DNA of 64,000 nucleotides from Alphaproteobacteria bacterium (GTDB taxonomy: Bacteria > Pseudomonadota > Alphaproteobacteria > Micropepsales > Micropepsaceae): contig JAHFQC010000013.1 in assembly GCA_023259375.1 (NCBI GenBank), forward strand, positions 1 to 64,000, in the 5' to 3' direction. The position numbers and the translations under genes are program-made. The notes beneath the pieces were generated by a model. It was not told where the DNA came from and did no database searches. It saw nothing but the letters and a program-made list of their open reading frames with translations. Positions 6,900 through 35,307 of this stretch are shown here, piece after piece (within the stretch, counting starts at the first letter, position 1; each line of letters opens with the position of its first letter).

Positions 6900-7379
6900 T
6901 TGGAGCACCACAAGCTCGATTCCATCGACCTCAAGATTTTGGCCGAACTTCAGGCCGACGGTCGCATCACCAACGTTGAACTCTCCCGCCGAGCCAAGAT
7001 CACGGCGCCGCCGTGCCTGCGCCGTATGCGGGCGCTGGAAAAAGCCGGCTACATTCAGGGATATCACGCCGATCTCGACCCCAAGTCGCTCGGCTTCGAA
7101 GTCACCGGCTTCGCCTTCGTCGGCCTCAACAGCCAGCACGATCGCGATCTCAAGGAATTCGAAGACCATGTCCGTTCGTGGCCGAACGTGCGCGAATGCT
7201 ACATGCTGTCGGGCGAAGTCGATTTCATTCTCAAGGTCGTGGCGAAAGACCTGTCCAGCTTCCAGAGCTTCATCACGGAAGTGCTGACGGCGGAGAAAAA
7301 TGTCGCGAGCGTCAAGACGGCCTTGTCGATTCATGCGTCGAAAAATCAGCCGGGCGTGCCGATCGAGGCGAAGCTTTAG
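6900..7379 (+). CDS. Lrp/AsnC family transcriptional regulator
   Basis: About 159 residues. The HTH is at the N-terminus ('LDSIDLKILAELQADGRITNVELSRRAKITAPPCLRRMRALEKAGYI') and the RAM ligand/oligomer domain follows ('GFEVTGFAFVGL', 'VRECYMLSGEVDFILKVVAKDL', 'VASVKTALSIH'). I chose the TTG at 6900 because a GGGGAAG lies just upstream and the protein then begins where family members normally begin; an in-frame ATG at 6867 would add 11 residues. It is divergent from trxB. Regulators of this type usually sense amino acids; the ligand is not known. Confidence 0.88.
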   Translation: MEHHKLDSIDLKILAELQADGRITNVELSRRAKITAPPCLRRMRALEKAGYIQGYHADLDPKSLGFEVTGFAFVGLNSQHDRDLKEFEDHVRSWPNVRECYMLSGEVDFILKVVAKDLSSFQSFITEVLTAEKNVASVKTALSIHASKNQPGVPIEAKL

Positions 7380-7833
7380 GCTTCTCGCAGCGATCGCCAT
7401 TTCTGCAGCGCCGGCGTTCGCGGACGATCCGGCGTTCGGCAGCTTCACGCTCGACCCGGCGCGTTCGACCGGCGGCGATGTTTGCGCGGCGACGAGCCTC
7501 GAAGATCTCGGCGGCGGTAAATTTCACATGACTGCCGTGCGCGTCGCCGCCGACGGCAAGAGGCAGCATCAGGACGGCGTGTTCGCGTTCGACGGCGGCG
7601 ATCATCCTGTTGCCTTGGCCGATGGGACGGGCGGCAGCCTCGCTTTCCTGCGCATCGACGATCACCGCTACATCGTGGTGTCGAAAGGCACCGTGCGGTC
7701 GACCGCCATGCGCACGCTTTCCGCCGATGGCGCAACGATGACCGAGACCATCGACGGCACCGACGACGACCAGGCGTTCCGCGCCTCGCGGGTCTATGTC
7801 CGCGGCACGGGGAGCTGCGAACAGAAGCAGTGA
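7333..7833 (+). CDS. Small exported protein of unknown function
   Basis: About 166 residues from the ATG at 7333, which lies inside the end of the Lrp gene (47-bp overlap). It has an arginine-rich n-region and a hydrophobic stretch ending 'AISAAPAFA', a good signal peptidase I site. The mature part (about 135 residues) holds two cysteines and several short beta-type segments ('ATSLEDLGGGKFHMTAVRV', 'RYIVVSKGTVRSTAMRTLS'). I recognise no family. The overlap suggests co-transcription with the Lrp gene; the start is not certain since no strong ribosome site is visible. Confidence 0.6.
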   Translation: MRRKISRACRSRRSFRLLAAIAISAAPAFADDPAFGSFTLDPARSTGGDVCAATSLEDLGGGKFHMTAVRVAADGKRQHQDGVFAFDGGDHPVALADGTGGSLAFLRIDDHRYIVVSKGTVRSTAMRTLSADGATMTETIDGTDDDQAFRASRVYVRGTGSCEQKQ

Positions 7834-7866
7834 TTTTTGGCGCGGGTTCGCGCCTTGGAGGGGGCA

Positions 7867-8787
7867 ATGGGCTGGTTCGGCCCCAAGCAAAGCGAAGAGC
7901 AGATCAAACGGGCGATGATCCGGCAGTATTTCGCGTCGGAGAGAGGGCTGCCGCCGTGGACCTTTGCCGCCGGCGGCGGTGTCAGCCTTGCGATCATGAT
8001 CGCGCTCGTGGTGTTCGCGATTTCGTTCTATGGCACCGTCGCCGCTGCGGTTCTGACGGTGGTGCTGTTCGCCATCGCCTGGGTGTCGTTCGACGAACGC
8101 TCGCGGCGGGCCGATGACGATGACATCGATTTTTGGCGCGACGAGGATTTCGAGGCCCTGATCGAGCGGATCGGTCGCGATGTCATGCGCACCACCCCCG
8201 GCCTGATCGATCCGCTGCATCCGATCGTGTTCGCCGGCATGCCGCGCTTCGACAATCTCGAGATCAGCCGCAGCCACGACAACGGCACGCTGCGCCAGCG
8301 CTGGCGCGTCAAATTCAAAGTCGGCCGCGACAAGGTCACCCGCTTCACCCCGCCCTGCCTCACGCTGCTCTATTTCACCAAGGACCACCTGATCGCCTAT
8401 CAGTGCGACCTCAATCTTCTCAACGGCCAAGTGATCAACGAAACGCTCGACGAGTATTTCTGGCAGGACATCTCGACGCTGCAGATCGAGCGCCAGACGC
8501 TGCCGACCGAGACCGACGACCGTCAGCTCTATGAACAAGTCGCGGAAAACATGCCGAATGAGGACGCCGAGCGTTACGCCCCGCTGCGCGCCGACGAGCC
8601 GGCCGAACTGTGGATCGGCAAGCGCACCATCCTGCGCCTGAAAACCAATTCGGGCGGCGGTCTCGAAATCGTGCTCGCCGACGAGCGCCTCACCGGCAAG
8701 CCCGACGAAGACAGTCTGCAGATCCGCAACGAAAAAGCCATCGACAAGCTGCGCCTGTTGCTGCGCGATCGCAAAGCGCGGCGATAG
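7867..8787 (+). CDS. Membrane protein of unknown function
   Basis: 306 residues starting at ATG 7867, chosen for the GGAGGGGGCA just in front of it; ten upstream codons are open but lack such a site. The N-terminus is soluble, two closely spaced transmembrane helices lie at about residues 31-72, and the remaining 230 residues are a charged cytoplasmic-type domain ('NLEISRSHDNGTLRQRWRV', 'LLYFTKDHLIAYQCDLNLLNGQ', 'EYFWQDISTLQIE', 'LEIVLADERL'). The repeated beta-strand patterns resemble a PH-like fold, but that is only an impression. No family name can be given. Confidence 0.75.
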   Translation: MGWFGPKQSEEQIKRAMIRQYFASERGLPPWTFAAGGGVSLAIMIALVVFAISFYGTVAAAVLTVVLFAIAWVSFDERSRRADDDDIDFWRDEDFEALIERIGRDVMRTTPGLIDPLHPIVFAGMPRFDNLEISRSHDNGTLRQRWRVKFKVGRDKVTRFTPPCLTLLYFTKDHLIAYQCDLNLLNGQVINETLDEYFWQDISTLQIERQTLPTETDDRQLYEQVAENMPNEDAERYAPLRADEPAELWIGKRTILRLKTNSGGGLEIVLADERLTGKPDEDSLQIRNEKAIDKLRLLLRDRKARR

Positions 8788-8795
8788 TCCTCATT

Positions 8796-8903
8796 CGTCA
8801 TGGCCGGGCGTTCGACCCGGCCATCCAGTGCCCGAACAAATACCGACGCCTTTCCAGATTTCGCCACCGCCAGGATGGCCGGCTCAACGGACCGGCCATG
8901 ACG
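8796..8903. repeat. Intergenic double-palindrome repeat, GTCATGGCC family, copy 2
   Basis: Same four-arm layout as the element at 3825-3909: outer arms CGTCATGGCCGGG and CCGGCCATGACG, inner arms CCCGGCCATCCAG and CAGGATGGCCGG. The central spacer differs in sequence from copy 1. It sits between a membrane-protein gene and an exported-protein gene on the same strand. Confidence 0.85.
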
Positions 8904-9044
8904 AGAGAATAAGGGCGCGAGTTTCCGTTCTATTCTGCAGTCACATCTCCGTTATCGCAGCAGTTTCCTCCAATCACGTGCGCGCCCGACGTGCACTATG
9001 GTTCGCGAGGAACGCAGACAACCAACAGAGAGGGAATTTTCGCC

Positions 9045-16067: not shown

Positions 16068-17093
16068 TTACGAGCGGACCGCTTCCAAGAACGCCCGGAT
16101 ATTCTCGGTGGTCACGCCCGGAGGCATACCGCCGCCGCACGACGCCAGAATGCGCGAATGATCCTTGGCCTCGGCCAGCATAGCCTTCACCGCAGCGCGG
16201 ACATCGTCAGGCGAGCCCGCGGCGAGCACATCGCGGGGTGGGATGTTGCCGAGAATAGTCATCCGGTGACCGGTCGCTTCGTGGATCTGACCCATCGTCA
16301 TGTGGATGCCGGGATTGTAGAGGTTCACGCCGAGATCGGGATAATGCTTCACCGACTGGCGGAAGTCGGCATCGTTGTGGAACATCTTCACCGACACCGG
16401 CTGATCGAACAGCTCCTTCAGATAGGGATGAGCAAATTCGAGGTAGTCGGCCTCGGAAATGAACCCGACGATGTCGTCGAGGACCAGCATGCCGTCGATG
16501 GTGTCGATCGCCTCGCGCTGGCGCACATGCCAGGCGATCAGATACTCGTTGATCAGCTTGAGCAGGCGATGGGTGCGTTCCGGATCGGTGCCGAGCATCA
16601 TCAGGAACTCGGTGGTCCCCATCAGGAAGCTGGCGATGTTGAGCGGTCCGCGGCTGACCGAGAAGCGGATCTTGTGGCCCATCTTTTCGATGCGCGAACG
16701 GTTGCGCGTCAGGCGATTGAGCATGAACGGCAGCAGGCCGTCGGTCTCGACATTCGGCACTTCGAGATTATCGACGTCGTCCTCGCTCTGAATGCACTTC
16801 TGGGCGAAGGGAAACTCGTTTTCCGGGAACTGGCACTTGACGCCGAACGCCGAGGGTTCGGTGCACATGCCGAACTCGCTCCAGAAGCCGGGCAGGAACA
16901 TGATATCCGGGAAGGTCTCGATCGCCTTCTTGTTGGCCTCGAACCAGACGTCGTCGCTCTGGAAATAATCGATCAGGTTGACCCCGTACCAGTTCGGCAG
17001 CCAGGGACAATCGATGATGAATCCCACCGGCAGCGTAGCGCCCGTTTCGCCCGCGATTGCCGCCTTGAGCTCCGCCCAGTGCTTGTCGTGCAT
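16068..17093 (-). CDS. URO-D-family (MtaA/MtbA-like) methyltransferase
   Basis: 341 residues in the uroporphyrinogen-decarboxylase fold, in the branch that handles methyl groups rather than haem: 'VSRGPLNIASFLMGTTEFLMML', 'LDDIVGFISEADYLEFAHPYLKELFD', 'LGNIPPRDVLAAGSPDDVRAAVKAML' and 'RILASCGGGMPPGVTTENIRAF'. In methyltransferases of this fold zinc is bound by an HxC pair and a later Cys; here the first motif reads His239-Asn-Asp241, with Cys319 kept. True HemE is not meant: the decarboxylase N-terminal motifs are absent. It is divergent from a homocysteine methyltransferase and a corrinoid activator, so the likely job is moving a methyl group to or from the corrinoid protein at 20326-20955. 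The substrate is unknown. Confidence 0.82.
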   Translation of the reverse strand: MHDKHWAELKAAIAGETGATLPVGFIIDCPWLPNWYGVNLIDYFQSDDVWFEANKKAIETFPDIMFLPGFWSEFGMCTEPSAFGVKCQFPENEFPFAQKCIQSEDDVDNLEVPNVETDGLLPFMLNRLTRNRSRIEKMGHKIRFSVSRGPLNIASFLMGTTEFLMMLGTDPERTHRLLKLINEYLIAWHVRQREAIDTIDGMLVLDDIVGFISEADYLEFAHPYLKELFDQPVSVKMFHNDADFRQSVKHYPDLGVNLYNPGIHMTMGQIHEATGHRMTILGNIPPRDVLAAGSPDDVRAAVKAMLAEAKDHSRILASCGGGMPPGVTTENIRAFLEAVRS

Positions 17094-17118
17094 ATTCCAC
17101 CCCTATTTGCCGGTCAGC

Positions 17119-17178
17119 GGGCGGACAATGATCCGCCCCGGCGCCGGGGACAATCCCCGGAAGTGCCTGTTTCACAGG
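17119..17178. other. Three tandem hairpins between divergent methyl-transfer genes
   Basis: Three stem-loops follow each other: GGGCGGA/TCCGCCC (17119-17138), CCGGGG/CCCCGG (17144-17160) and CCTGT/ACAGG (17166-17178). They lie in the 175-bp gap between the URO-D gene and the homocysteine methyltransferase, 90 bp in front of the latter. They may be a leader RNA structure for either operon. I do not see a cobalamin or SAM riboswitch consensus. Confidence 0.5.
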
Positions 17179-17268
17179 AATTGGTACCGGTCCCGCTGCG
17201 ACATGGCGTGCATTGAACCGCCCGGGAGGTCGTGCTGAGACTCGCTCTGCCATTTTGAGGGGGCCACC

Positions 17269-18150
17269 ATGTCCCACCCGGTCATCGACAAGCTCGTTCG
17301 TCAGGCGCCCGTCATCACTGATGGTGCGTGGGGCACACAATTGCAGGCCCGCGGCCTTCAGCCCGGCGATGTGCCCGATTTGTGGAATCTTTCCAATCCC
17401 GACGCGGTCGAAGCCGTGGCGGCTTCCTATGTCGCGGCGGGATCGCAGATCATTCTCACCAACACCTTTGGCGCCAACCGCTTCCGCCTCGTTGAGGCCG
17501 ATGCGGCCGACAAGGTGCGCGAGATCAACAAGGCCGGGGTGGCGCTGTCGAAGAAAGCCGCGGGCGATAAGGCGCTTGTGTTCGCCTCGATCGGGCCGAG
17601 CGGCAAGCTGCTTCTTAGCGGCGATGTGACGGAAGACGACTTGGCGGTCGGGTTCGCCGAACAGGCTGAAGCCGTTGCCGCGGCCAAGCCGGATGGCATC
17701 GTCATCGAGACCATGCAGGACATCCAGGAAGCCGTCCTGGCGATCGCTGCCGCCAAGGCGACGGGATTGCCGGTGGTGGCAAGCATGGTGTTCGATTCCG
17801 GCAAGGACCTCGACCGCACCATGATGGGCGCCACACCGGAACAAGCGGCCGACGCCCTTGCCAAGGCCGGAGCCGATGTCATCGGCGCCAATTGCGGCCA
17901 AGGCATCGCCGGGTTCGTCGCCATCTGCAAGCGCCTGAATGCCGCCAGCCAGGGCTTGCCGGTATGGATCAAGGCTAATGCAGGGCTTCCCAGGATTGAG
18001 AACGGCAAGACCCTGTACGCCACTACGGCAGACGATTTCGCCGCCCAGGTTCCGGCGGTATTGACCGCGGGGGCGAGCTTCATCGGCGGCTGTTGCGGCA
18101 CCTCGCCCGCGTTCATCGCGAAGGTCGCAGCATCTCTCAAGCGGGCATGA
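17269..18150 (+). CDS. Homocysteine S-methyltransferase domain protein
   Basis: 293 residues, a single HcyS/BHMT-type barrel: 'ITDGAWGTQLQARGL', 'GSQIILTNTFGANRFRL', and the three zinc cysteines Cys209 (GANCGQG) and Cys275-Cys276 (GGCCGTSP). All metal ligands are present, so it should bind and methylate a thiol such as homocysteine. It corresponds to the first module of methionine synthase MetH; the folate, B12 and activation modules of MetH are not fused. Its stop overlaps the start of the DUF1638 gene (ATGA), so it leads a three-gene coupled operon. Together with the corrinoid protein it probably ends the methyl route at methionine (inference). Confidence 0.88.
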   Translation: MSHPVIDKLVRQAPVITDGAWGTQLQARGLQPGDVPDLWNLSNPDAVEAVAASYVAAGSQIILTNTFGANRFRLVEADAADKVREINKAGVALSKKAAGDKALVFASIGPSGKLLLSGDVTEDDLAVGFAEQAEAVAAAKPDGIVIETMQDIQEAVLAIAAAKATGLPVVASMVFDSGKDLDRTMMGATPEQAADALAKAGADVIGANCGQGIAGFVAICKRLNAASQGLPVWIKANAGLPRIENGKTLYATTADDFAAQVPAVLTAGASFIGGCCGTSPAFIAKVAASLKRA

Positions 18151-18884
18151 CGGCCCGCCGGAAGCTGAGCGTCATCGCCTGCCCAAGCCTGCGGCCGGAA
18201 TTGGAGCTGGTCGCAGCAAAGACTGGTGAGGACGTTTCGTTCCGCTATCTCGAGATGGCACTGCATAATCGCTCGACCGGAGCGCTGCATGACGCGCTAC
18301 AGCAGGCCATCGACTCGACGCGCGGCTGCGATGTCCTCGTTATTGGCTATGGCTTGTGCAATCGTGGCATCGTCGGCATCGCGGCGCGAGACATTCCGCT
18401 CGTCATTCCGCGAGCCCACGACTGCATCGGGCTTCTGCTGGGATCGACGGCGCGTTATCTCGAAGAACTCGACCGCGAACCCGGCACCTATTTCCAAAGC
18501 GCAGGCTGGCTGCAGGCGGCGCGTGATGCGGGCGGCCAGGGGGAACTCACGTTCGGCCCCAATTCCAATGCCAACTTCGAACGCCTGGCGGCGCAGTACG
18601 GCGATGAGGCTGCCCGCTATCTGGTGGAAGAACTCGAAACCTTTCTTATGCACTACAAGCGCCTAGCCTACGTCGCGACCCCGCTTTCGGAGACTGCTGC
18701 ATTGGCGGCTGAAGCCCGTTCGATCGCCGCGGCACAGGGGCTGAAGTACGATACCCTTCAAGGTGATATTGGCTGGCTGCAGCGCTTGTTGACCGGGCCG
18801 TGGCCGGACGAGGAATTCCTGATCGTACGCCCAGGACAACGAGTTGGGCTTGCGAGCGGCGACCGATTGATCGAGGCGATATGA
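18147..18884 (+). CDS. DUF1638 domain protein
   Basis: 245 residues beginning with the ATG that overlaps the previous stop. It has 'KLSVIACPSLRPELELVA', 'DVLVIGYGLCNRGIVGIAARDIPLVIPRAHDCIGLLLGS' and 'GTYFQSAGWL', the pattern of DUF1638, a family often found beside corrinoid methyltransferases and their activators. Cysteines in 'ACPS', 'GLCN' and 'HDCI' could bind a metal or iron-sulfur centre. It overlaps the next gene by 4 bp (ATGA). Its role in methyl transfer is not known; corrinoid handling or metal insertion is a guess. Confidence 0.82.
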   Translation: MTARRKLSVIACPSLRPELELVAAKTGEDVSFRYLEMALHNRSTGALHDALQQAIDSTRGCDVLVIGYGLCNRGIVGIAARDIPLVIPRAHDCIGLLLGSTARYLEELDREPGTYFQSAGWLQAARDAGGQGELTFGPNSNANFERLAAQYGDEAARYLVEELETFLMHYKRLAYVATPLSETAALAAEARSIAAAQGLKYDTLQGDIGWLQRLLTGPWPDEEFLIVRPGQRVGLASGDRLIEAI

Positions 18885-20329
18885 CGACCATCACGCTGCA
18901 TGGATCGGAGCGGCACCTCGAAGCGGCGGCGGGAACACCGCTGCGCGATCTGCTGTTCGGCGAGGGTGTCGAGTTTCCCTGCGGCGGACAGGGGCGCTGC
19001 GGAGGGTGTCGCGTTCGGGTCATCACCGGCACGATGACGGCGAACGCCGATGATCACGCTGCCTTCTCCGCTACCGAACTTGGCGACGGCTGGCGGCTGG
19101 CGTGCCGGCACACCGTTGAGGCCGACGTCACTCTCGAGCTGGCGCAATGGGAGATGACCGTCCTCGGCGATGCCGAAGCGTTCGCCTTCACACCCCGCGA
19201 CGGCTTCGGAATCGCGGTCGACCTCGGCACCACTACCATTGCAGCCCAACTTCTGGATCTCAGTACCGGTCAGGTGCTGGCGACGCGAACGGCGCTCAAC
19301 GATCAAGCCCGGCACGGCGCCGATGTGCTGTCGCGGGCTGGCTATGCCTTGGCAGGCGGAGCGACGGAACTCACCAGCCTGATCCGGGAGCAGATCGGGG
19401 CGATGGTCGCGGAACTTGCGGCAGATCGCGCTCTCAGCCGAATCGTGGTGGCGGGCAACAGCGCCATGCACCATCTGTTCGGCGGACTCGATATCGCGCC
19501 GCTGGCGACCTACCCGTTCCTGCCCGAGCATCCCGAGGCGCTGCGGTTCAGCGGTGCCGACCTCGGCTGGACGACCAGCGCGGCAGTCGAGGTGCTGCCG
19601 TGTATCGGCGGACTGGTTGGCGGCGACGTCCTAGCGGGCGTTAGCGCGACGGGACTGAAGGACCAGCGCGGGCTGGTTGCCCTGGTCGATCTCGGCACCA
19701 ATGGCGAGGTCGTCGTCGCCAAGGATGGCCGCATGTTGTGCACCTCGACGGCAGCAGGACCGGCGTTCGAAGGCGCCCGCATCCACTACGGCATGCGGGC
19801 CGCGACCGGGGCCATCGATGCGGTTGCCTCCGATGGTACATGCCACGTCATCGGCGGCGGAGCGGCGCGCGGACTTTGCGGCTCAGGACTCGTCGATGCG
19901 GTGGCGGCAGGACTCGACAATGGTCGCATCACCCCAAGCGGACGCATGGCCGATGACTGGATGCTGGTCGATGGCGTGGCGCTGACCCCGCACGATGTGC
20001 GTGAGCTCCAGCTTGCCAAAGGCGCCATTGCGGCGGGGCTGAAACTTCTCACCGCCAAGTTCGGCGCCACACCGGCCGATATCGATCGGCTTTATTTGGC
20101 AGGCGCTTTCGGCAACGCGATCAACCGTACCAGCGCGGTGCGGATCGGGCTGATCAAGACGCCGGCGGAGCGTATCATTCCGGCCGGCAATACCGCCCTC
20201 AAGGGCGCCAAGCGGGCGCTGTTTGCGGACGCCGCCGATTTGGAAACGCTGGCAAAAACTATCGATTTCATGCCGCTCAACGAAGAACCGGCGTTCGAAG
20301 AAGTCTTCGCCGAAGAGATGGGGTTCTAG
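18881..20329 (+). CDS. RACo/RamA-type corrinoid activator (2Fe-2S + ASKHA, DUF4445)
   Basis: 482 residues. The first 80 are a plant-type ferredoxin domain with Cys34, Cys40, Cys43 and Cys75 (PCGGQGRCGGC ... LACRH). Next comes an actin-like ATPase (ASKHA) fold: phosphate loop 'GIAVDLGTTTIAAQLLDLSTGQ', 'VVAGNSAMHHLFGG', 'DLGTNGEVVV', 'GARGLCGSG' type and 'LYLAGAFGNAIN'. This is the architecture of ATP-dependent reductases that return inactive Co(II) corrinoid to Co(I). It lacks the long linker of larger members. It is translationally coupled to DUF1638 and its 3' end overlaps the convergent corrinoid gene by 4 bp. The activating role toward that corrinoid protein is well supported by context. 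Confidence 0.9.
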   Translation: MTTITLHGSERHLEAAAGTPLRDLLFGEGVEFPCGGQGRCGGCRVRVITGTMTANADDHAAFSATELGDGWRLACRHTVEADVTLELAQWEMTVLGDAEAFAFTPRDGFGIAVDLGTTTIAAQLLDLSTGQVLATRTALNDQARHGADVLSRAGYALAGGATELTSLIREQIGAMVAELAADRALSRIVVAGNSAMHHLFGGLDIAPLATYPFLPEHPEALRFSGADLGWTTSAAVEVLPCIGGLVGGDVLAGVSATGLKDQRGLVALVDLGTNGEVVVAKDGRMLCTSTAAGPAFEGARIHYGMRAATGAIDAVASDGTCHVIGGGAARGLCGSGLVDAVAAGLDNGRITPSGRMADDWMLVDGVALTPHDVRELQLAKGAIAAGLKLLTAKFGATPADIDRLYLAGAFGNAINRTSAVRIGLIKTPAERIIPAGNTALKGAKRALFADAADLETLAKTIDFMPLNEEPAFEEVFAEEMGF

Positions 20330-20955
20330 TGCAGCGACCGCGCCAGCGGCACCGCTCCGGCGGCGTTCTGGCTGTAGCCGTCGGCGCCGATCTCTTTGGC
20401 ATAGGCTTCGGTCACCGGCGCACCGCCGACCATGACCTTCACCTGCTCGCGCACGCCCGCTTTGGCGAGGGCGTCGATGGTGGTCTTCATCGCCGGCATG
20501 GTGGTGGTGAGCAGAGCTGATAACGCCACGATCTGCGCCCCCTTCTCCTTCACCGCCCGGACAAACTTGTTCGGATCGACATTGACGCCGAGGTCGATCA
20601 CCTCGAAGCCGCCGCCTTCCAGCATGGCGGCGACCAGATTTTTGCCGATGTCGTGCAGGTCGCCCTTAACGGTGCCGATGGCGATCTTGCCCGCCGGCTC
20701 GATCCCGCCTGCCGCGAGCAGGGGCCGGATCAGTTCCAGGCTCGCTTTCATGGCGCGGGCGGCCAAGAGAAGCTCGGGCACGAAATACTCGTTGGCCTCG
20801 AATTTCTTTCCGACCTCGTCCATGGCCGGCATCATTACGTCCTGGACCAGGGCCAGCGGCGCGGCTCCCTCGGCAAGGGCGGCTTCCGTAACCGTTTTAG
20901 CGGTAACATTGTCCCCGGTCAGAATTGCTTGGTGGAGAGCTTGAAGGTCGGCCAT
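20326..20955 (-). CDS. Methyltransferase corrinoid protein (B12-binding)
   Basis: 209 residues. A helical cap domain occupies residues 1-85 ('VQDVMMPAMDEVGKKFEANEYFVPELLLAARAM'), then a cobalamin-binding Rossmann domain with the His-on motif DLHDIG (residues 99-104, lower ligand His101), 'SALLTTTMPAM' and 'VMVGGAPVTEAYAKEIGADGY'. This is the MtaC/MttC-like form: one small protein shuttling methyl between two methyltransferases. It is convergent with the activator gene, sharing 4 bp, and transcribed on its own toward it. Confidence 0.95.
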   Translation of the reverse strand: MADLQALHQAILTGDNVTAKTVTEAALAEGAAPLALVQDVMMPAMDEVGKKFEANEYFVPELLLAARAMKASLELIRPLLAAGGIEPAGKIAIGTVKGDLHDIGKNLVAAMLEGGGFEVIDLGVNVDPNKFVRAVKEKGAQIVALSALLTTTMPAMKTTIDALAKAGVREQVKVMVGGAPVTEAYAKEIGADGYSQNAAGAVPLARSLH

Positions 20956-21062: not shown

Positions 21063-21151
21063 TGGCGGACAGGGAGGGATTCGAACCCCCGGTACGGTTT
21101 CCCGTACGCCGCATTTCGAGTGCGGTGCGATCGACCACTCCGCCACCTGTC
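21063..21151 (-). tRNA. tRNA-Ser (anticodon CGA)
   Basis: Read on the reverse strand, acceptor GGACAGG pairs with CCTGTCC, followed by G and an encoded CCA (21065-21063). The anticodon arm is CCGCA-CTCGAAA-TGCGG, anticodon CGA. The long variable arm (TACGG ... CCGTA) is that of a class II tRNA, and the T arm carries GGTTCGAATCC. Confidence 0.96.
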
Positions 21152-21842
21152 CAGCGTAAGGGGGCCTGAAATAATGAACCCGGGGCCGAAGTGCAAGCGC
21201 GGCCCGAAGCTTGGCCCTTCCGGCAGGCCTCGGCGGCTGCGACCAATTCGCGTCGGGCCGAAACGGCGGGCGGCCTCCAACATATGGGGCGACTTCAGGC
21301 CAAAACCACACCGGCTTGATCTTTGATTGGCGGAATTGGCGAAACCACCCCAGGAGAGCGGGCCGGACCGCCAAAAAACGGAAAACCTGAATTCAATTCG
21401 GCGATTTCGACCCTAAGCCACGGAACAACCGCAAGAATCGCCTTGCACTGGGAATGGCGCAAAACGGCAGCAACAAGCGCCGCGGTGGCGGGCTGTCCAG
21501 AATCGAAATCGAATCGTTCCAAACTACGAACCCAACGCCGCCATGACGAGACAACGCGTCCCGAATCGAATTCGAAACTTTCCAAACGACGCACACGCGC
21601 AATCGCGACTGCGAAGCAGTGTGAAGATCAGTCCAGCGCGGTCAAACAGCTTCGATTGAGGTAGGCACGCCCACGCCAGTTTCAAGACGGCGGAACGTCC
21701 GATGAGCGGAGCAACTTCGGACATTCGCTCGAGGTCCGGCTTGCGCCACTTCCAGACATACGTTTTCAGTTAGGCCGTGACCCCCAAAAGGTTGTTGCAA
21801 CTCCCTTCGGATGGCAGAGTCGGCCGACGTGGAGGATGTCTA
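21152..21842. other. About 690-bp gene-free region downstream of tRNA-Ser with dispersed repeats
   Basis: No open frame here looks like a protein. At 21495-21514 lies the reverse complement of ATTCGATTTCGATTCTGGAC, the core also found at 12495 and 12570. A degenerate second unit is at about 21556-21584 (reverse: GGAAAGTTTCGAATTCGATT). Further along, 21608-21660 carries the inverse of the GAAGCAGT / TTTGACCGCG segment found at 12425-12475. The whole is an inverted, diverged copy of the repeat array at 12425-12600. Confidence 0.72.
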
Positions 21843-26777: not shown

Positions 26778-28355
26778 ATGCATCTAGGCTTCAAGGACAT
26801 CATCGTCATCCTCATTTATGCCGTCCTTGTGCTGACGGTGGCGCATCTGTTCCAGCGCGGTGAGCGGCGAGACGACGAAGATGGTGATGATACGCCGGTG
26901 CGGCGCGCCCTGCCTTGGTGGGCCATCGGCGCCTCGCTGATCGCGGCGAACATCTCCGCCGAGCAGATCATCGGCATGTCGGGGTCGGCCTATGCGCTCG
27001 GCATCGCCATCGCCGGTTACGAATGGCTGGCTGCCTTCGCCATGGTGGTCATCGGCAAGTACTTCCTGCCGGTGTTCCTGAAGAACCAGATTTCCACCAT
27101 GCCGCAATTCCTGCGCCTGCGGTACGGGCCGAAGACGCAAGTGACGATGGCGCTGATGTGGCTGGCGCTCTACACCTTCGTCAACCTGACCGCCGTGATG
27201 TGGCTGGGCGCGACCGCCGTGCATGTCGTGACCGGACTCAACATGACGGTGAGCGTGATCCTGCTCGGTCTGGTGGCGGGCAATTACGCGCTTTATGTCG
27301 GACTCAAATCGACCCATTTCACCGACGTGATACAGGTCGCCATGCTGGTGCTCGGCGGCATCGTGATCATGGTGTTCGCGCTCGAGAAGATCGCCGCATC
27401 GGTCGGTTCGCCGGGCGGCCTCCAAGGCGTGGTGTTCGGCTTTCAAACCATGGTGGAGCGGATGCCCGAGCATTTCGATATGGTGCTCGACCCGTCCAAT
27501 CCCTATTACAAGTACCTGCCCGGCCTTGCCACGGTCGGCGGCGCGATGTGGCTGATCCAGTTCTCCTACTGGGGCTTCAACCAGTACATCGTGCAGCGGG
27601 CACTGGCCGCGCGCTCGATCCGCGAAGTGCAGAAGGGCATGGTGTTCGCCGCCTATCTGAAACTCTTGATGCCGGTGCTGGTGGTGCTGCCCGGCATAGC
27701 CGCCGCCTACCTTTTGCCCGGCGTGGCGCCGTCCGACACGGCGTATCCCAGACTGATGACCATGCTGCCGCCAGGCTTCCTCGGCTTCGTCTTCGTGGCG
27801 CTGGTGGCGGCCATCGTCGCATCGACCGGATCGAGCCTGTCGTCGATCGCCAAGATATTCACCCACGACGTCGTCGAAGTCGTCTATCCCGGCGCGACCC
27901 GGCGCCTGCTCGTCATCGTCGGCAAGTTCGGCGCCATCGGCGCGCTGATGGTCGCCATGGCGGTCGCGTCACCGCTGCTCGGGCACACCGATCAGGCGTT
28001 CCAGTACATCCAGGAGTTCACCGGCTTTCTCACCCCCGGCGTGATCGTGGTCTTCGTCCTCGGCATGTTTTGGGCGCGCACCACCGAGACCGGCGCCTTG
28101 CTTGCGGCCGGCGGCACCGTGATCGCCTCGGCGTTCTATGCGCTGTTCCTGCCCGAGATGCCGTTCATGATCCGGATGATGAACGTGTTCATGATTTGCT
28201 TCGCCCTCGCCGTCGGCGGATCGCTTGCCACCAGGCCGAAGCACGAGGCGGCCATCGATCTAAAGGGCGTCGATTACAGCACGTCGGCCGGTTACAACAT
28301 CGCTTCCGCCGCCATCGCACTGATCCTGGCAGGACTGTACTGGTATCTCTGGTAG
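26778..28355 (+). CDS. Sodium:solute symporter (SSS/SGLT family)
   Basis: 525 residues from ATG 26778; the long upstream open frame is a shadow of rlmJ. About 14 hydrophobic helices. Family motifs: 'LPWWAIGASLIAANISAEQIIGMSGSAYALGIAIAGYEW', 'FLKNQISTMPQFLRLRYG', 'GGAMWLIQFSYWGFNQYIVQRALAARSIREVQKGM', and 'VALVAAIVASTGSSLSSIAKIFTHDV', which holds the Na+-site serines. It fits the vSGLT-like sugar symporters. The sugar locus lies 1.2 kb further on, which supports a sugar role without proving it. Confidence 0.92.
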   Translation: MHLGFKDIIVILIYAVLVLTVAHLFQRGERRDDEDGDDTPVRRALPWWAIGASLIAANISAEQIIGMSGSAYALGIAIAGYEWLAAFAMVVIGKYFLPVFLKNQISTMPQFLRLRYGPKTQVTMALMWLALYTFVNLTAVMWLGATAVHVVTGLNMTVSVILLGLVAGNYALYVGLKSTHFTDVIQVAMLVLGGIVIMVFALEKIAASVGSPGGLQGVVFGFQTMVERMPEHFDMVLDPSNPYYKYLPGLATVGGAMWLIQFSYWGFNQYIVQRALAARSIREVQKGMVFAAYLKLLMPVLVVLPGIAAAYLLPGVAPSDTAYPRLMTMLPPGFLGFVFVALVAAIVASTGSSLSSIAKIFTHDVVEVVYPGATRRLLVIVGKFGAIGALMVAMAVASPLLGHTDQAFQYIQEFTGFLTPGVIVVFVLGMFWARTTETGALLAAGGTVIASAFYALFLPEMPFMIRMMNVFMICFALAVGGSLATRPKHEAAIDLKGVDYSTSAGYNIASAAIALILAGLYWYLW

Positions 28356-28363
28356 GCGTTCGT

Positions 28364-29344
28364 TTACCCGGCCCGCGCCAGCAGCATGGACGCCAGATCG
28401 AAGCGGATCTCCTTCATGCCGTAGTCGATCGAGACCTGCGCGAACTGGCGCAGGAAGTTCATCCCGATCAACAGTGCCGGCTGGTTCGACAAGCCCCACA
28501 CGTCGAAAATCGCCATATCCGCGATCGCCACCACCGCATCGGAGAAGCTGACCGAATGGAGGTGGATGCGGTCGACCCGGACCACGGCACCCATGATGAC
28601 GCCGCCGGTGATGCCAGTGATCGGCAGCAGACCGAGAGTGCGCAGGCCCGGATTCTCCTCGATCAACGACTTGAGGAGCATCGTATTGCCCACCGAAATC
28701 TGCGCGCCGGTATCGAGGAAGCAGGTGGTCGCAACACCGTCGACGCGGCAATTCAACGACCGCAGATGGCCCATGGAGCCGCGCACCGGCACGTAGGCTT
28801 CGGTCGAACGCCGCGTCTGGAAGGCGGTCTGCGAACGCGAGGTGCTGATCTTGAGGGCGCGGTTGGCGAAATCGAGAGTCACGCGCGCGCCATCCACCGC
28901 ATCGAGCCCGAGATAGCCATCGGCGCCCATATACGTGCGCGGCAGCATCGGCATCACCAGATTGCGCCGGTTTACCGAACCGAAGGAGAGATTGGCGATC
29001 GGCACGACCCGGGTAGCAAAGGAGCGCACCACACCTTGAACCGACACCTCGGTCCCCCGCACCAGCCCGAGCGTCACCGCAAGGTCTTCGGCGATCACCG
29101 AACGGTCGGCACCGGTGTCGACCACAAACCGGAACGGTCCCTGGCCGTTGATCATCACCGGAATGGTCATGTGCTCGTCGGCATCGTTGCCGGCAGCAAT
29201 ACGCGCAGCATCGTCAGGCGGCGCGCCCGGTTGCGGCGGCGCAATCTCCTGCGCCCAACTCATTTGGGTCAGTGCGGCTCCGGCAGCTCCGGCAGCAACG
29301 AAACGCCTGCGCGACAGCCTTGTGGCTTCAGTCTCTGCACGCAT
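28364..29344 (-). CDS. Exported retropepsin-like aspartic protease
   Basis: 326 residues from ATG 29344, preceded by GGAGGGCGAAG. The N-terminus carries a Tat-type signal ('LSRRRFVAAGAAGAAL'). Two catalytic motifs are visible: 'FRFVVDTGADRSVIAEDLA' and 'CFLDTGAQISVGNTMLL', each in its own half, so this is a two-domain single chain with both Asp present. 'GYLGLDAVDGARVTLDFANRALKI' is the conserved linking strand. It is convergent with the symporter (8 bp between stops). Target proteins are unknown. Confidence 0.85.
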   Translation of the reverse strand: MRAETEATRLSRRRFVAAGAAGAALTQMSWAQEIAPPQPGAPPDDAARIAAGNDADEHMTIPVMINGQGPFRFVVDTGADRSVIAEDLAVTLGLVRGTEVSVQGVVRSFATRVVPIANLSFGSVNRRNLVMPMLPRTYMGADGYLGLDAVDGARVTLDFANRALKISTSRSQTAFQTRRSTEAYVPVRGSMGHLRSLNCRVDGVATTCFLDTGAQISVGNTMLLKSLIEENPGLRTLGLLPITGITGGVIMGAVVRVDRIHLHSVSFSDAVVAIADMAIFDVWGLSNQPALLIGMNFLRQFAQVSIDYGMKEIRFDLASMLLARAG

Positions 29345-29588
29345 CTTCGCCCTCCGATCCGTGCTGGCAGGACGCAATTGTCGTGAGCCGTATGTCCAAA
29401 CTGTGTCTAGGCGCGGCTGCTCCAGCACTCCGTCGATTTCGAACGCATGCGGAGTTTACCACCCAACACCGCGTTCGGATTGGGAAATCTTCACTCGCAG
29501 AAGATGAAGAAGCCAGTGCCGCGCCGGATTGTAAGCATCACAAGCGCGTGACCGGCGACAACTCTGCCGCCGGCCAAGCCAGCCATGC

Positions 29589-32522
29589 TTAATGGCGGCG
29601 CTTCTTGGAGGACTTGCGCCCGGTATGAACCGCGCTTTTCTTGCTCGACGTCGTGGTGGCTTTCTTTTTCTTCGAGCCGTGGGCGTGCTTGGATTTCGGC
29701 GCACCCGGATCGGCGGAGGCTGCATGTCCCGGGCCGGTCATCGCCGCCGCAGCGGTCACCGACGGCACCTGCGCACAGCTGAGCGGCTCGCCTTCGCGCG
29801 AAATCTTAACCGACTGGATGGTGACATCGAGCCCCTTGGTCGCCGTCAGCGAAAAGCCGGTCGGCACGTTGGAGAGATCGGCCCCCGCGTCCCTCAGGCA
29901 AGCGAGCGGAACATTCAGGGTCGTAAAGCCGCCGCGGTCGGCCAGTGCGCGCAACGTGTCGGTGAAATCGAGTTGACCACCGCAAAGCGGGCCGCAACCC
30001 ATCGCCAGCACGATATGAGACTCCGGCGCCCGGTCGACGCGCAAAGTCATGGCAAGACCCAGACCTCGATCGGCTTCGCCGCTGAAATCGGCGGGCGTCC
30101 CCGAAATATGGAAGCTGACCGGCACGCGCGTGGCCCAGGTCACGTTCACTCCCGCCGCGGTGCGCGTAGCGGTCAATCCGGCTTGCGTCGCCTTGGACGA
30201 CGCCCGCGTCACGACGCGCTCACCGCCGACATAGAGATTCCAGCCGCTCGTTGGCGCTCCGTTGTCGAGAATGACACTCTGCTCGGCGGTCCCGGCCGGC
30301 GACACTGAGGCTGGTGACACTGGTGCCGGCGGCACCAAGGCCGACCGCACGGGGGCAGACGCCAACGGGGCGGACGGCATGGGGGCCGTCACGGCCGCAG
30401 CCGGTACCGTAATTTGGTGCTGCGCCGGTACCGCCGTCGGCAGCGGGCCGATGTTCTGTGGCGCGCCGTAGGTGAGTCCGTAGCCAAACGGGAACAGCGG
30501 GAAATACGGCTCGGTCCCGGTATTGTTGGCATATTGATCGGGCGAACGCGGCCAGGAGAACGACAGGCGACCGCGGAAATCATAGGCGACCGATCCATCG
30601 GCATGGGCGAACAGGAGGTCGGAGACGCCCTCCCCTTCCGTTCCCGGCCAGAACGCGGCGACAAAGGCATTGGCGGCGTTGATCTCCGGCGTGACGTAGA
30701 GCGGACGGCCGGAAAGGAACACAGCCACCACCGGAATGCCCTGCGATTGCAGACGCTGCAACAACTTCAAGTCGCGCTTAGTGCCAGGCTGATATTCGAG
30801 CGTGTTGATATCGCCCTTGCCTTCGGCATAGGCGTCTTCGCCGAAAACGACGATCGCCACATCGGGACGCTGACGGAAGGCACCCTCGAGCGAATAATCG
30901 ACGATGCCGCCCGCGGCCTCGACGTTGGCTTTGATGCCTTCGTAGATCGTGGTGCCGTGCGGAAAATCGGCGCGGCTCGTCTCGGTGCCCTGCCAAGTGA
31001 TGGTCCAGCCGCCGGTCTGCTTCGACATGTTCTGGGCGCCTTCACCGGCCACCAGCACATGGCTGCGCGGGGAAAGCGGCAATAGTCCGCCGTCGTTCTT
31101 GAGCAGCACGAGCGACTCGCGCACCGCCTGCCGCGCCACGGCGCGATGTTCGGGCGAGCCCAACATTTCGTAATGCCCGGCATAAGGACGCTGCGACGGA
31201 CGTCCCGCCGCCATCAATCCGGATTCGATCTTGACGCGCAGAATACGGCCCACCGCCTCATTGATGCGCGCCATCGGAATCTGCCCGGAACTCACCTGAT
31301 TGATGAGATTGCCGTAGAGCGTCTTCCAGTCGTCGGCGGTCATGATCATGTCGACGCCGGCGTTCACCGCCTGCGGACAATTCGAGCGCGTGCAGCCGGG
31401 CACATCGGCGATGCCGTGATAGTCGCTGATGACGAAGCCATCGAAACCGAGACGGCCGACCAGCACATCGCTGACCAGGCCCTTCTGCCCGTGCATCTTA
31501 AGGCCGCGCCAACCGGAGTAGGACACCATCACGTTCTTGGCGCCCGCCTTGATCGCGGCGATATAGGGCGCGCCGAACAGGTCGCGGACGGCAGGCTCGG
31601 AATAGGTCATGTCGCCGGCGTTGACGCCATTATCGGTGCCGCCGTCGCCGATGAAATGCTTGATCGACGCGAGCACATGGCCGCCCTTGAGATAATCGGC
31701 GCTGCCGGGCTTGCCCTGCAGGCCTTCGACCATCGCGACCGCGTTCTCGGTCACGAGCCGCGGCTCCTCGCCAAAACCTTCATAGGAGCGGCCCCAGCGG
31801 TCGTCGCGGATGACGGCGATGGTCGGCGCAAACGTCCAATCCTGACCGGTCACGCGGATTTCCTGCGCCGCGATCTCGCCGAGACGGCGCACGAGATCGG
31901 GATCGCGCATCGCACCAAGGCCGATGTTGTGCGGGAAGATGGTAGCCCCGATGATATGGCCGTGGCCGTGCACCGCATCGATGCCCCACATCAGCGGAAT
32001 GCGCAGGCGTGTCCGCATCGAGGCGTCGTAATACTCGTCGGCGGCTTTCAGCCAATCCGGAGCCGGCGCGCGAAGATTGCCGTGCGGACCCGCACTGCCG
32101 CCGTTCAAAACCGAGCCGAGGTGATACCGGGTCACATCGTCGGGCGTGGTGCTTCTGATGTCGGGCTGCAGCATCTGCCCGATCTTCTCTTCCAGCGTCA
32201 TCTGTGCCAGAAGACGGGCGACCTCGGCCTCGACAGCTGCGTTCCGCTTCGGCGGCGGATTAGCGGGCCAGATTTCGGGATGTACCACCGTCGAGGTGGC
32301 GAAAGACGCTTCAGCAGGTGAGGACGCCGGTGCGGGTGTCGCGACGGGCGCCGGTTGCGGCGCAGTCTCCTTGGCCGCGGTCTTGGCCTCCGCATCGGAG
32401 AGGCCGATCCACGACGCGGGATCCGTGAAGCTGACGTTCGAGCACGCGGCCAGGGTCACGGCCCCCGCGAGCAACACCGTGTAGCGGAGCTTGCGTGCAG
32501 CATTGGTCTTGTATGCGCGCAT
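29589..32522 (-). CDS. Glycoside hydrolase family 3 lipoprotein (beta-glucosidase type)
   Basis: 977 residues starting after AGGAGAGACC. A lipobox ('VTLAAC') gives a lipid anchor. The GH3 N-domain (about 95-450) has 'MTLEEKIGQMLQ', 'IPLMWGIDAVHGHGHI', 'KHFIGDG' and the nucleophile in 'GFVISDYHG' (Asp about 366); the C-domain (about 480-720) has 'SLVLLKNDGGLLPL' and 'FWPGTEGEGVSDLLF'. It resembles ExoP/CelD exo-glucosidases. A further ~170-residue beta domain follows an Ala/Pro/Ser linker, and the C-terminus is a Lys/Arg/Ser/Thr-rich tail of about 40 residues, unusual for this family. With the epimerase, sugar porter and LacI downstream it forms a glucan/glucoside locus. Confidence 0.95.
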   Translation of the reverse strand: MRAYKTNAARKLRYTVLLAGAVTLAACSNVSFTDPASWIGLSDAEAKTAAKETAPQPAPVATPAPASSPAEASFATSTVVHPEIWPANPPPKRNAAVEAEVARLLAQMTLEEKIGQMLQPDIRSTTPDDVTRYHLGSVLNGGSAGPHGNLRAPAPDWLKAADEYYDASMRTRLRIPLMWGIDAVHGHGHIIGATIFPHNIGLGAMRDPDLVRRLGEIAAQEIRVTGQDWTFAPTIAVIRDDRWGRSYEGFGEEPRLVTENAVAMVEGLQGKPGSADYLKGGHVLASIKHFIGDGGTDNGVNAGDMTYSEPAVRDLFGAPYIAAIKAGAKNVMVSYSGWRGLKMHGQKGLVSDVLVGRLGFDGFVISDYHGIADVPGCTRSNCPQAVNAGVDMIMTADDWKTLYGNLINQVSSGQIPMARINEAVGRILRVKIESGLMAAGRPSQRPYAGHYEMLGSPEHRAVARQAVRESLVLLKNDGGLLPLSPRSHVLVAGEGAQNMSKQTGGWTITWQGTETSRADFPHGTTIYEGIKANVEAAGGIVDYSLEGAFRQRPDVAIVVFGEDAYAEGKGDINTLEYQPGTKRDLKLLQRLQSQGIPVVAVFLSGRPLYVTPEINAANAFVAAFWPGTEGEGVSDLLFAHADGSVAYDFRGRLSFSWPRSPDQYANNTGTEPYFPLFPFGYGLTYGAPQNIGPLPTAVPAQHQITVPAAAVTAPMPSAPLASAPVRSALVPPAPVSPASVSPAGTAEQSVILDNGAPTSGWNLYVGGERVVTRASSKATQAGLTATRTAAGVNVTWATRVPVSFHISGTPADFSGEADRGLGLAMTLRVDRAPESHIVLAMGCGPLCGGQLDFTDTLRALADRGGFTTLNVPLACLRDAGADLSNVPTGFSLTATKGLDVTIQSVKISREGEPLSCAQVPSVTAAAAMTGPGHAASADPGAPKSKHAHGSKKKKATTTSSKKSAVHTGRKSSKKRRH

Positions 32523-32612
32523 GTGCCGGTCTCTCCTGGATCTTTGGCGGGCGGACCATAAAGCGCTTCAGCCATTGTGGGAACCCGGTTTTCAATCTGC
32601 CGGCACGAGCAT

Positions 32613-32646
32613 GAAAAGCAAAACGCCGGTCACGAGGACCGGCGTT
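32613..32646 (-). terminator. Intrinsic terminator of the sugar operon
   Basis: Stem AACGCCGGTC / GACCGGCGTT (32622-32646), 10 bp perfect with a five-base loop, followed on the reverse strand by TTTTGCTTTTC. It lies 50 bp beyond the aldose epimerase stop, so the GH3 gene must start from its own promoter. Confidence 0.85.
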
Positions 32647-32694
32647 CTGTCAAGTTACAATCGATCGCCTGAAACAGGATGCCGCTTTGGCCCG

Positions 32695-33561
32695 TTACAG
32701 CGAACGCACTGCGAGGCGCATTTCGAGCGTCGCCGAAGCTCCGGGCGCCAACACCTTGGCCCCCGAATCAGCCGGTGATTCGCTGCGGTTGAATGCGTTG
32801 GGCATTGCCGTCGTCGGCTCGGCGCAGAAGAAGTCGGTCCCTTCCGGCATGAACGCATGCAGGAAGGAACTGTTGGCTGAGGCCGTCAGCGCGATTTCAA
32901 GCCCGAGTTCGGGCTGAGTGATGATCGCCGGACCTTCCCAGCCGGTGAAGGTGTTGTCGACGAACGGCGCCTTGGACACAACCTGACCGGCGTTGAGATC
33001 GATCAGCCGGCCGGGCTCCACATAGTCTGTCGGCAACATCGTGTCGTCGGCAAGCCACATGCCCTTGACCGACGCCTTAAGCGTCGAGCCGGGGCGGCGC
33101 GGAAAGTAAGGATGGAACCCGAGGCTGTACGGCATCGGCTTGGCGCTGCGATTCGTGAGCGTGAGCGCGAGCGCCATGCCGTCGTCGGTCACCGTGAACA
33201 CCTGCTCGGCCGTATAGGCCCACTCCCAGGCGTCGGGCGCATGCTCGAAGCCGAGGCTGAGGCGATCGCGCGACACAACGCCGACCTTCCACGCCGCCTG
33301 CCAGCCGTGGCCGTGCAGCGAATGCGGATGGTCGCCGAAGTTCAGCGGCAGGCGATACGACCGGCCGCCGAAATCGAACGTGCCCTTCTCGATGCGGTTG
33401 GCATACGGAACCAACGGAAACTCGCACATTTCGAGCACGTTGGTTTCACCCGCCTTCACGGGCCGCATGACGGGCACGTTACCCATCGCAAAACGCGTGA
33501 TGGCGCCGCCGAATTCCGGGGCGATATCGAGTTCGAATTTACCTCGTCCGAGAGTGATCAT
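32695..33561 (-). CDS. Aldose 1-epimerase family protein
   Basis: 288 residues. It has the conserved galactose-mutarotase motifs: 'EFPLVPYANRIEKGTFDFGG', 'HPHSLHGHGWQAAWKV' (catalytic-type His), 'YSLGFHPYFPRRP', and 'FVDNTFTGWEGPAII'. It interconverts alpha and beta anomers of free sugars. Its start lies 2 bp after the stop of the sugar porter, so the two are coupled. With the GH3 hydrolase upstream in the pathway, it would handle released glucose or xylose. Confidence 0.93.
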   Translation of the reverse strand: MITLGRGKFELDIAPEFGGAITRFAMGNVPVMRPVKAGETNVLEMCEFPLVPYANRIEKGTFDFGGRSYRLPLNFGDHPHSLHGHGWQAAWKVGVVSRDRLSLGFEHAPDAWEWAYTAEQVFTVTDDGMALALTLTNRSAKPMPYSLGFHPYFPRRPGSTLKASVKGMWLADDTMLPTDYVEPGRLIDLNAGQVVSKAPFVDNTFTGWEGPAIITQPELGLEIALTASANSSFLHAFMPEGTDFFCAEPTTAMPNAFNRSESPADSGAKVLAPGASATLEMRLAVRSL

Positions 33562-33563
33562 AG

Positions 33564-35036: not shown

Positions 35037-35134
35037 CCAACTCCTCCCAGCGAGCAAGCTCGCATTACGTACGCACAGGCTCTTGGCGGCCTGCCAATCC
35101 TGGCTCCATACCGTATCGTCCGGCGGCGATATAT

Positions 35135-35148
35135 TGATAGCGTTACCA
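35135..35148. promoter_or_regulatory. Candidate LacI-family operator
   Basis: TGATAGCGTTACCA is an imperfect 14-bp palindrome with central CG, matching the general LacI-family operator form TGnnAnCGnTnnCA. It lies 100 bp in front of the sugar porter and behind the LacI gene. A weaker symmetrical sequence, TAAAGCGCTTCA (32559-32570), lies in front of the GH3 gene. Confidence 0.45.
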
Positions 35149-35307
35149 GCTCGCAGGCGGCAATCTGTCCAAGACCTTAGTACTATGGAAGCGCTGTCAT
35201 TGTTCCGTCAACGACCATGCCGTGCGAAGCGCCGTCCGCTGCCGCGATAGATGCGCGCAAGCATCCAGCGGCCACTCAACCGCCAATGGATACTCAACCA
35301 AAGGTGA

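Follow-up and report, generated by a model that had tools for sequence, protein, structure and literature searches.

A five-gene corrinoid methyl-transfer unit in Rhizomicrobium-type bacteria and 4-O-methyl-glucuronate as its candidate methyl donor

Gene content and layout of the unit

The window analyzed here is a stretch of 64,000 nucleotides from contig JAHFQC010000013.1 of an alphaproteobacterial genome of the order Micropepsales (GCA_023259375.1; 4.67 Mb, 155 contigs, completeness 96.5%). This genome is close to that of Rhizomicrobium electricum, the URO-D proteins of the two being 98% identical. The subject of this report is a unit of five genes at 16068-20955 (Table 1) that seems equipped to move methyl groups by way of a corrinoid protein. 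A first-pass annotation, made from the letters of the sequence, had named all five genes, and Pfam searches confirmed them as encoding a UroD-superfamily protein, a homocysteine S-methyltransferase domain protein (HcyS), a DUF1638 protein, a RACo-like activase and an MtgC-like corrinoid carrier. The same annotation had the genes all touching each other, which is correct for HcyS and DUF1638, DUF1638 and RACo, and the convergent RACo and carrier genes, each pair overlapping by 4 bases; the URO-D and HcyS genes, by contrast, are divergent and separated by 175 bases that contain an operator-like palindrome. A tRNA gene (21066-21152) lies directly past the corrinoid gene and could mark the place where the unit inserted.

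Table 1. Features of the methyl-transfer unit (positions in the window)
Feature	Position	Strand	Support or location
UroD-superfamily methyltransferase; candidate 4-O-methyl-glucuronate (or 4-O-methyl uronate product):corrinoid methyltransferase	16068..17093	-	Pfam URO-D 130 bits
Operator-like palindrome TGGTACCGGTCCCG	17182..17195	.	divergent URO-D/HcyS promoter
HcyS, homocysteine S-methyltransferase domain, 293 aa	17269..18150	+	Pfam S-methyl_trans 211.7 bits
DUF1638 protein, presumed corrinoid-reactivation helper	18147..18884	+	Pfam DUF1638 120.4 bits
RACo/RamA-like ATP-dependent corrinoid reductive activase, N-terminal 2Fe-2S, 482 aa	18881..20329	+	Pfam Fer2, Raco_middle, RACo_C_ter
MtgC-like corrinoid carrier, 209 aa, DLHDIGK motif	20326..20955	-	Pfam B12-binding, B12-binding_2

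A search with the URO-D protein (E <= 0.001) in 64 genomes of the order gave matches in six, five of them at 75-100% identity (G000, G008, G013, G018 and G042) and the sixth remote (G027, 29%). The identical five-gene arrangement was found in all five close-match genomes, the window's included, with URO-D proteins 75-98% identical in the other four. Some neighbour genes are common to the window, G008 and G013; none of nine neighbour proteins from the window had a match in the DNA surrounding the unit of G018 and G042, where the tested neighbours are other genes. The recurrence of one arrangement between unrelated flanks indicates more than a chance association. The five genes are also complete in loci L018 (Rhizomicrobium electricum DSM 21034), L020, L021 and L022, of which the first three represent the same genomes as G008, G013 and G042, respectively, and are not additional cases. 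A 6-kb contig (L019) has four of the five genes, the carrier not being found there. No hint of a substrate was recognized among the tested flank genes of L012 and L013, and the DUF1638 protein had no match when searched against plasmids. The genus member with the remote match, G027, has a different corrinoid locus (L009/L014), made up of a carrier fragment, a 434-aa UroD-type protein, a 264-aa protein and a RACo-like protein.

Fold, metal-site motif and relatives of the URO-D protein

The URO-D protein passed neither the HemE cut-off (TIGR01464; 60.9 against 302.95 bits) nor the MtaA/CmuA cut-off (57.7 against 235.4 bits). Identity as HemE was rejected given a score so far under the cut-off and the presence of a separate URO-D family protein elsewhere in the genome (337 bits), which is presumably HemE. 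The AlphaFold model (pLDDT 92.2) has a predicted UroD fold that is equally near UroD (1jpk; Z 31.0, 2.8 Å over 325 residues) and MtaA (4ay7; Z 30.4). Among solved structures, the only demethylase of the superfamily reached was CdmB (9rui), a remote match with two profiles (E 3.3e-6 and 1.7e-8), and CdmB was not among the 50 fold-comparison matches listed for the model.

The first-pass annotation had pointed to an altered zinc motif, HND in place of HxC, and residues H239-N240-D241 proved invariant in 37 of 37 aligned URO-D sequences, including that of Gemmatirosa. In the wider cluster of URO-D neighbour frames HNDA occurs in 81 of 87; the six frames without it are four second paralogues and two other proteins. 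The HTC of CmuA would align to HND only if a shift of one column is allowed. In the available text of Kountz and Balskus (PMC10418091), UroD S-methyltransferases are described as having a His-Cys-Cys site, with carboxylates or non-ligands taking the place of one cysteine or of both in UroD O-methyltransferases. The His-x-Asp motif matches this O-methyltransferase pattern and therefore counts for an O-demethylase. The four second paralogues carry His-x-Cys and follow the His-x-Asp gene (L051:11063-12067, L076:13729-14775, L086:11056-11832 and L094:12410-13417); those of L076 and L086 score as MtaA/MtbA-like, under the cut-off. Such a paralogue may be the thiol-side partner of an O-demethylase.

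A scan of named genomes confirmed at least 505 URO-D relatives, of which the best 80 were kept. The tree built from them has 82 rows (42 Bacteroidota, 16 Verrucomicrobiota, 6 Ignavibacteriota, 5 Pseudomonadota and 4 Lentisphaerota among them) and includes two mispicked rows, L070 and L073, for which reason motif conservation was taken from the 37-sequence alignment. The Rhizomicrobium-type URO-D proteins group together in one clade (100/100), which falls within a starred set (99/98) of 30 rows that also takes in Verrucomicrobiota, Lentisphaerota and other lineages; the clade is placed as it might be after a transfer, in a tree whose root is not established.

HcyS, carrier and reactivation genes

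HcyS had been credited with all three zinc cysteines, and C209, C275 and C276 were indeed found and are conserved in all 17 sequences aligned; these cover 17 of the 26 HcyS-bearing loci. The carrier had been called His-on, in agreement with its DLHDIGK motif; its nearest NCBIfam model is MtgC, with scores of 205.3 and 184.3 bits that do not pass the cut-offs of 370 and 310. In Phaeobacter, the fitness of the DUF1638 gene correlates with that of the split methionine synthase genes, and the RACo and DUF1638 proteins of the unit match the pair tied to methionine synthesis there, as far as the available part of that study goes (PMC5764234). In the annotated loci of Sinorhizobium meliloti and Azoarcus, carrier, DUF1638 and activase genes stand with pterin and MTHFR-like genes, in S. 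meliloti also with an MttB-type gene, whereas the unit of the window has no pterin, MTHFR-like or MttB-type gene.

The partner genes of URO-D differ between lineages. The carriers of the Rhizomicrobium loci and those of the Bacteroidota and Ignavibacteriota loci fall in separate starred sets of the carrier tree, and the reactivation genes are RACo plus DUF1638 in the former and encode a PF02965-like protein in the latter. Between the window and the Bacteroidota and Ignavibacteriota loci, HcyS is 39-46% and URO-D 56-65% identical. Given the separate carrier sets and these unequal identities, URO-D seems to have been combined more than once with different carrier and reactivation genes, long branches limiting how far this can be taken. 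The finding of HcyS and a carrier with URO-D on such different backgrounds counts for the function proposed in the Discussion.

In L073 the place between reactivation gene and carrier, held by HcyS in other loci, is taken by an MtaA-like protein of 539 aa that has thioredoxin-like domains at its C-terminus (7366-8985). A PF13769-like "virulence factor" domain, under the Pfam cut-off, ends the Gemmatirosa carrier (L017:11176-12147), and S. meliloti, Azoarcus and Terrarubrum have genes annotated "virulence factor" close to those for carrier and DUF1638 (L125:10807-11109, L127:7186-7521 and L126:8140-10422). A B12-linked role of these proteins seems likelier.

Neighbourhoods of URO-D relatives in other phyla

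Flanking DNA was fetched for the 80 URO-D loci, many of the flanks being short. Genes for HcyS were found in 24 loci, for the carrier in 22, for both in 19, for the mannonate dehydratase UxuA in 8, for GH115 in 6 and for UxuA or GH115 in 12; a methyl-transfer gene and a sugar gene occur together in three. For the 41 loci with at least 4 kb on each side, the counts are 14 for HcyS or carrier, 10 for UxuA or GH115 and 21 for either. Identities of GH115, GH43, UxuA and the short-chain dehydrogenase/reductase (SDR) were confirmed by Pfam in representatives only.

The fullest neighbourhoods are those of L085, L086 and L076. In L086 the order is GH115-GH43-MtgC-HcyS-reactivation-URO-D, followed by a URO-D paralogue and, on the opposite strand, UxuA and an SDR. 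Locus L085 reads GH115-MtgC-HcyS-reactivation-URO-D, with UxuA, an SDR and a symporter 5.6 kb further, and in L076 GH115 and GH43 precede MtgC-HcyS-reactivation-URO-D. GH115 also lies upstream of URO-D in L032, L090 and L092. UxuA is linked to URO-D in L025, L034, L058, L066, L085, L086, L095 and L096 and, in addition to these 8 of 80, in L017, together from six phyla; L066 has URO-D-UxuA-SDR, and UxuA-URO-D occurs in L025 and in Gemmatirosa (L017). The SDRs of L085 and L017 scored over the NCBIfam cut-off for D-mannonate oxidoreductase and the UxuA of L085 over that for mannonate dehydratase, while the SDRs of L066 and L082 and the UxuA-like protein of L066 scored under them. In four genomes whose URO-D locus has no HcyS or carrier, an adjoining HcyS-carrier pair is encoded elsewhere (G077 for L032, G088 for L052, G096 for L068 and G099 for L079).

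Xylan genes, uxuA and an operator-like site

One contig of the window's genome carries genes for an enolase-superfamily N-terminal domain, an MFS_2 transporter, GH52, GH10, a glucuronoyl esterase and, at the contig end, GH115; a second contig has GH115 with GH43, and a third has uxuA, with no sugar gene recognized beside it. The palindrome TGGTACCGGTCCCG at 17182 is the sole match to the consensus TGGTACCGGTACCA within 2 mismatches in the 64 kb (0.06 expected). The uxuA stretch of the same genome has one site, 30 bases ahead of the gene (0.01 expected), and in the xylan stretch the enolase/transporter promoter and the start of GH115 together account for three (0.01 expected). Altogether, 138,711 bases of stretches from this genome contain six sites, one of them (in L123) inside a gene, against none in 10 simulated sets. 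Since the consensus was chosen after the first site had been seen, weight falls on the later uxuA and xylan stretches.

In R. electricum (G008) sites occur at the URO-D promoter (L010, 2 mismatches), at uxuA (L128, 2) and at GH115 genes (L132, 2; L133, 1, the latter at the gene start, where predicted frames overlap). Genome G013 has sites at the URO-D promoter (3 mismatches) and uxuA (2), G018 only at uxuA (3) and G042 only at a GH115 gene (3). No intergenic site within 2 mismatches was found in the GH115 stretches L123, L134, L135, L137, L138 and L139. In the window beyond the unit, a region at 26784-36480 encodes a sodium:solute symporter, GH3, an aldose epimerase, a sugar transporter and a LacI regulator, and a version of the palindrome with 3 mismatches lies ahead of the sugar transporter, at 35135.

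Methionine synthase and pterin proteins in the genome

The window's genome has a MetH frame of 1279 aa that includes pterin and reactivation domains. Pterin_bind (PF00809) was found in this genome only in MetH and in a second protein, whose sequence and phosphoglucosamine-mutase-like neighbour suggest FolP; no search was made for other folate-binding families. The statement of the first-pass annotation that the unit has no folate-binding domain thus held, as did, for MttB, its statement that no MttB- or MtaB-type methyltransferase is present: the MTTB family (PF06253) had 0 matches in the genome, and MtaB-type proteins were not searched for. Glycine betaine demethylation was rejected because neither MtgB (0 PF06253 matches) nor MtgD was found in the genome.

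The annotation had likened the unit to a folate-free methionine synthase and proposed looking for it in genomes without metH/metE. MetH was above the curated cut-off in 37 of the 45 genomes with a URO-D relative, which cover 45 of the 80 loci; no match was found in G068, G070, G078, G083, G086, G090, G100 and G103, absences that are not firm as these are draft genomes. With a full MetH in the window's genome and in most of these relatives, a replacement methionine synthase was rejected (MetE was not searched for). What stands is a single methyl-transfer unit without a folate domain, not a stand-in for MetH. By comparison, the available text of Mausz et al. (PMC12478193) gives about 70% of MtgBCD genomes as having no MetH, unlike the URO-D genomes here.

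Discussion

Side chains of 4-O-methyl-glucuronate are common in xylans, including those of hardwood. Taken together, the gene content, adjacency, conserved motifs, predicted fold and shared operator-like sites reported above suggest that the unit is a corrinoid-dependent O-demethylase of 4-O-methyl-glucuronate, or of a product of it, that passes the methyl group to homocysteine; we give this a probability of about 0.57. The assignment of URO-D to the donor side and HcyS to the acceptor side, already made in the first-pass annotation, is supported by the sequences. The annotation had left the donor unnamed; its view that the altered motif points to another donor is retained, and the neighbourhoods in other phyla and the operator-like sites in the genus point to 4-O-methyl-glucuronate from glucuronoxylan as a narrower candidate. 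Every reaction, the substrate, the place of demethylation before or after isomerization and reduction, and HcyS as the main acceptor are read from the genes and are put forward as such. A broader claim, held tentatively at a little under even odds, is that xylan 4-O-methyl-glucuronate serves as methyl donor for folate-free methionine synthesis through a module that occurs in Bacteroidota, Verrucomicrobiota, Ignavibacteriota, Gemmatimonadota and Rhizomicrobium and has been reassembled with differing carriers and reactivation proteins.

In the proposed pathway, 4-O-methyl-D-glucuronate would first be released by a GH115 alpha-glucuronidase and a glucuronoyl esterase, the genes for which lie at other loci of the genome. 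The URO-D protein would then methylate the MtgC-like carrier at Co(I) with the O-methyl group, the ether oxygen being activated by a site of His239, Asp241 and perhaps Cys319, and HcyS would pass the methyl group from the carrier to zinc-bound homocysteine, yielding methionine without folate. RACo and DUF1638 would re-reduce carrier that has slipped to Co(II), and the demethylated uronate could enter the glucuronate route (isomerase, D-mannonate oxidoreductase and UxuA). The donor half would resemble the aromatic UroD O-demethylases, as these are described in the available parts of PMC13222342 and PMC8630106, and the acceptor half the HcyS and B12 modules of MetH or MtgE.

Parts of this combination are familiar from other systems. 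With the aromatic O-demethylases (MtvB/OdmB/VdmB/MtoB) the unit has in common a donor methyltransferase of the UroD superfamily, a separate corrinoid carrier and an ATP-dependent activator, the cognate corrinoid protein and activator being encoded with the URO-D protein, and the apparent replacement of a zinc cysteine by a carboxylate is as reported for UroD O-methyltransferases. It differs from them in the xylan and uronate gene neighbours of some relatives and in an acceptor that would be HcyS, not a folate or H4MPT methyltransferase. With no pterin protein in the unit, and only MetH and the FolP-like protein in the genome by PF00809, it appears as an O-demethylase-like unit without the usual second half (MT2). 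MtgBCDE of Ruegeria and Sinorhizobium likewise couples demethylation to methionine through an MtgC-like carrier, HcyS (MtgE) and DUF1638/RamA-type helpers, and differs in having an MttB-type MtgB and the pterin protein MtgD where the unit has a UroD-type donor side and a carrier under the MtgC cut-offs. The split methionine synthase of Phaeobacter inhibens is encoded, as here, by separate genes for HcyS, B12 protein, DUF1638 and RamA-like activator, together with a pterin-binding piece that is missing from the unit, whose genome has MetH intact. MetH itself shares the HcyS and B12 modules; the unit lacks its folate module and fused reactivation domain and has a different donor module. Type I mlp gene clusters also combine UroD methyltransferases, a corrinoid protein and an activator, but encode several Mlps, mostly with His-Cys-Cys, unlike the one His-x-Asp protein and the HcyS of the unit.

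Four other explanations were weighed. The sugar could be demethylated and the methyl group passed mainly to tetrahydrofolate through the pterin domain of MetH, or to another acceptor, leaving HcyS a minor or alternative route. This is rather unlikely but has several points for it: the full MetH of the window's genome and of most URO-D genomes, the second His-x-Cys paralogue of four loci, which could serve another thiol, and the use in Ruegeria of one carrier and a bidirectional MtgD for both glycine betaine demethylation and methionine synthesis (available text of PMC12478193). It is opposed by the absence from the genome of a stand-alone pterin methyltransferase by PF00809 and by the co-occurrence of HcyS and carrier in 19 of 80 loci. 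Somewhat less likely is that the donor is another plant-wall methyl ether, either a vanillate- or ferulate-type aromatic or another O-methyl sugar, with uronate genes adjacent through shared use of plant cell walls. MtvB, OdmB, VdmB and MtoB use methoxylated aromatics, according to the accessible portions of PMC13222342 and PMC8630106; on the other hand, UxuA lies beside URO-D in six phyla and shares the operator-like site with it in the genus, and no ring-cleavage enzyme was recognized among 21 neighbour clusters, most of them not run against Pfam.

That HcyS, carrier, DUF1638 and activator are a back-up split methionine synthase using methyl-folate from another protein, with URO-D incidental, is improbable. 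Phaeobacter does have such a set, HcyS, B12 protein, DUF1638 and RamA-like proteins whose mutants are rescued by methionine (available part of PMC5764234), but here no separate pterin protein was found by PF00809 and MetH is intact. Moreover, the unit accompanies URO-D in all five genomes of the order that have it (the other four genes without URO-D were not searched for), and HcyS or a carrier lies near URO-D in other phyla as well. Least probable, by a small margin, is an S- or Se-methyltransferase that would salvage methylthio or methylseleno compounds: the superfamily, corrinoid protein and activator are those of the mlp clusters, as far as the accessible text of PMC10418091 describes them, yet the motif is His-x-Asp and not His-Cys-Cys, the unit has a single such protein and not several, and no sulfur-salvage genes were recognized among the identified neighbour families.

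Several observations weigh against 4-O-methyl-glucuronate demethylation coupled to methionine. C319 is nearly invariant but is valine in Gemmatirosa. In the fetched flanks, 68 of the 80 loci have neither UxuA nor GH115, 56 have no HcyS and 58 no carrier. The GH115-linked loci (L032, L076, L085, L086, L090 and L092) are five Ignavibacteriota and one Bacteroidota (L032) and so are not independent; a rough density model that ignores relatedness expects about 0.38 where 6 of 80 flanks have GH115, and its P value of 3e-6 is too good. A neighbour cluster in L036, L052, L053 and L070, the one tested member of which (L070) is a "MetA-pathway of phenol degradation" protein (PF13557), gives a possible hint at aromatics and favours the aromatic alternative. 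In the stretches inspected from the window's genus, no xylan genes adjoin the unit; the operator-like site provides the link, and no site at up to 3 mismatches was found in the URO-D promoters of G018 and G042 or at uxuA of G042. Co-occurrence in the order is weak and confounded: GH115 is present in 5/5 URO-D genomes and 5/59 others (Fisher 3.3e-5), and the control pectinase GH28 behaves nearly alike (4/5 and 5/59; Fisher 9.3e-4), so that GH115 co-occurrence was dropped as stand-alone proof. UxuA occurs in all five of these genomes and in 23 of the 64 overall. Across phyla, GH115 was found in 37 of the 45 URO-D genomes, 8 being without it, compared with 14 of 247 Bacteroidia, a comparison that mixes phyla and has the same confounding; only 1 of the 247 has URO-D, too few for a comparison within the class. 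Lastly, a rough estimate from general biomass figures puts the methyl supply from xylan several-fold above the need for methionine, and because of this excess a second methyl sink is likely.

In the one literature collection searched, nothing relevant to 4-O-methyl-glucuronate demethylation was found among the matches listed, one of which only cites a birch xylan paper; no earlier report of this substrate or of the combination, and no known enzyme for the step, was found there. If the proposed function is correct, the unit would name this missing enzyme and would tie B12 supply to the breakdown of xylan, and a methyl ether of plant origin would directly feed methionine.

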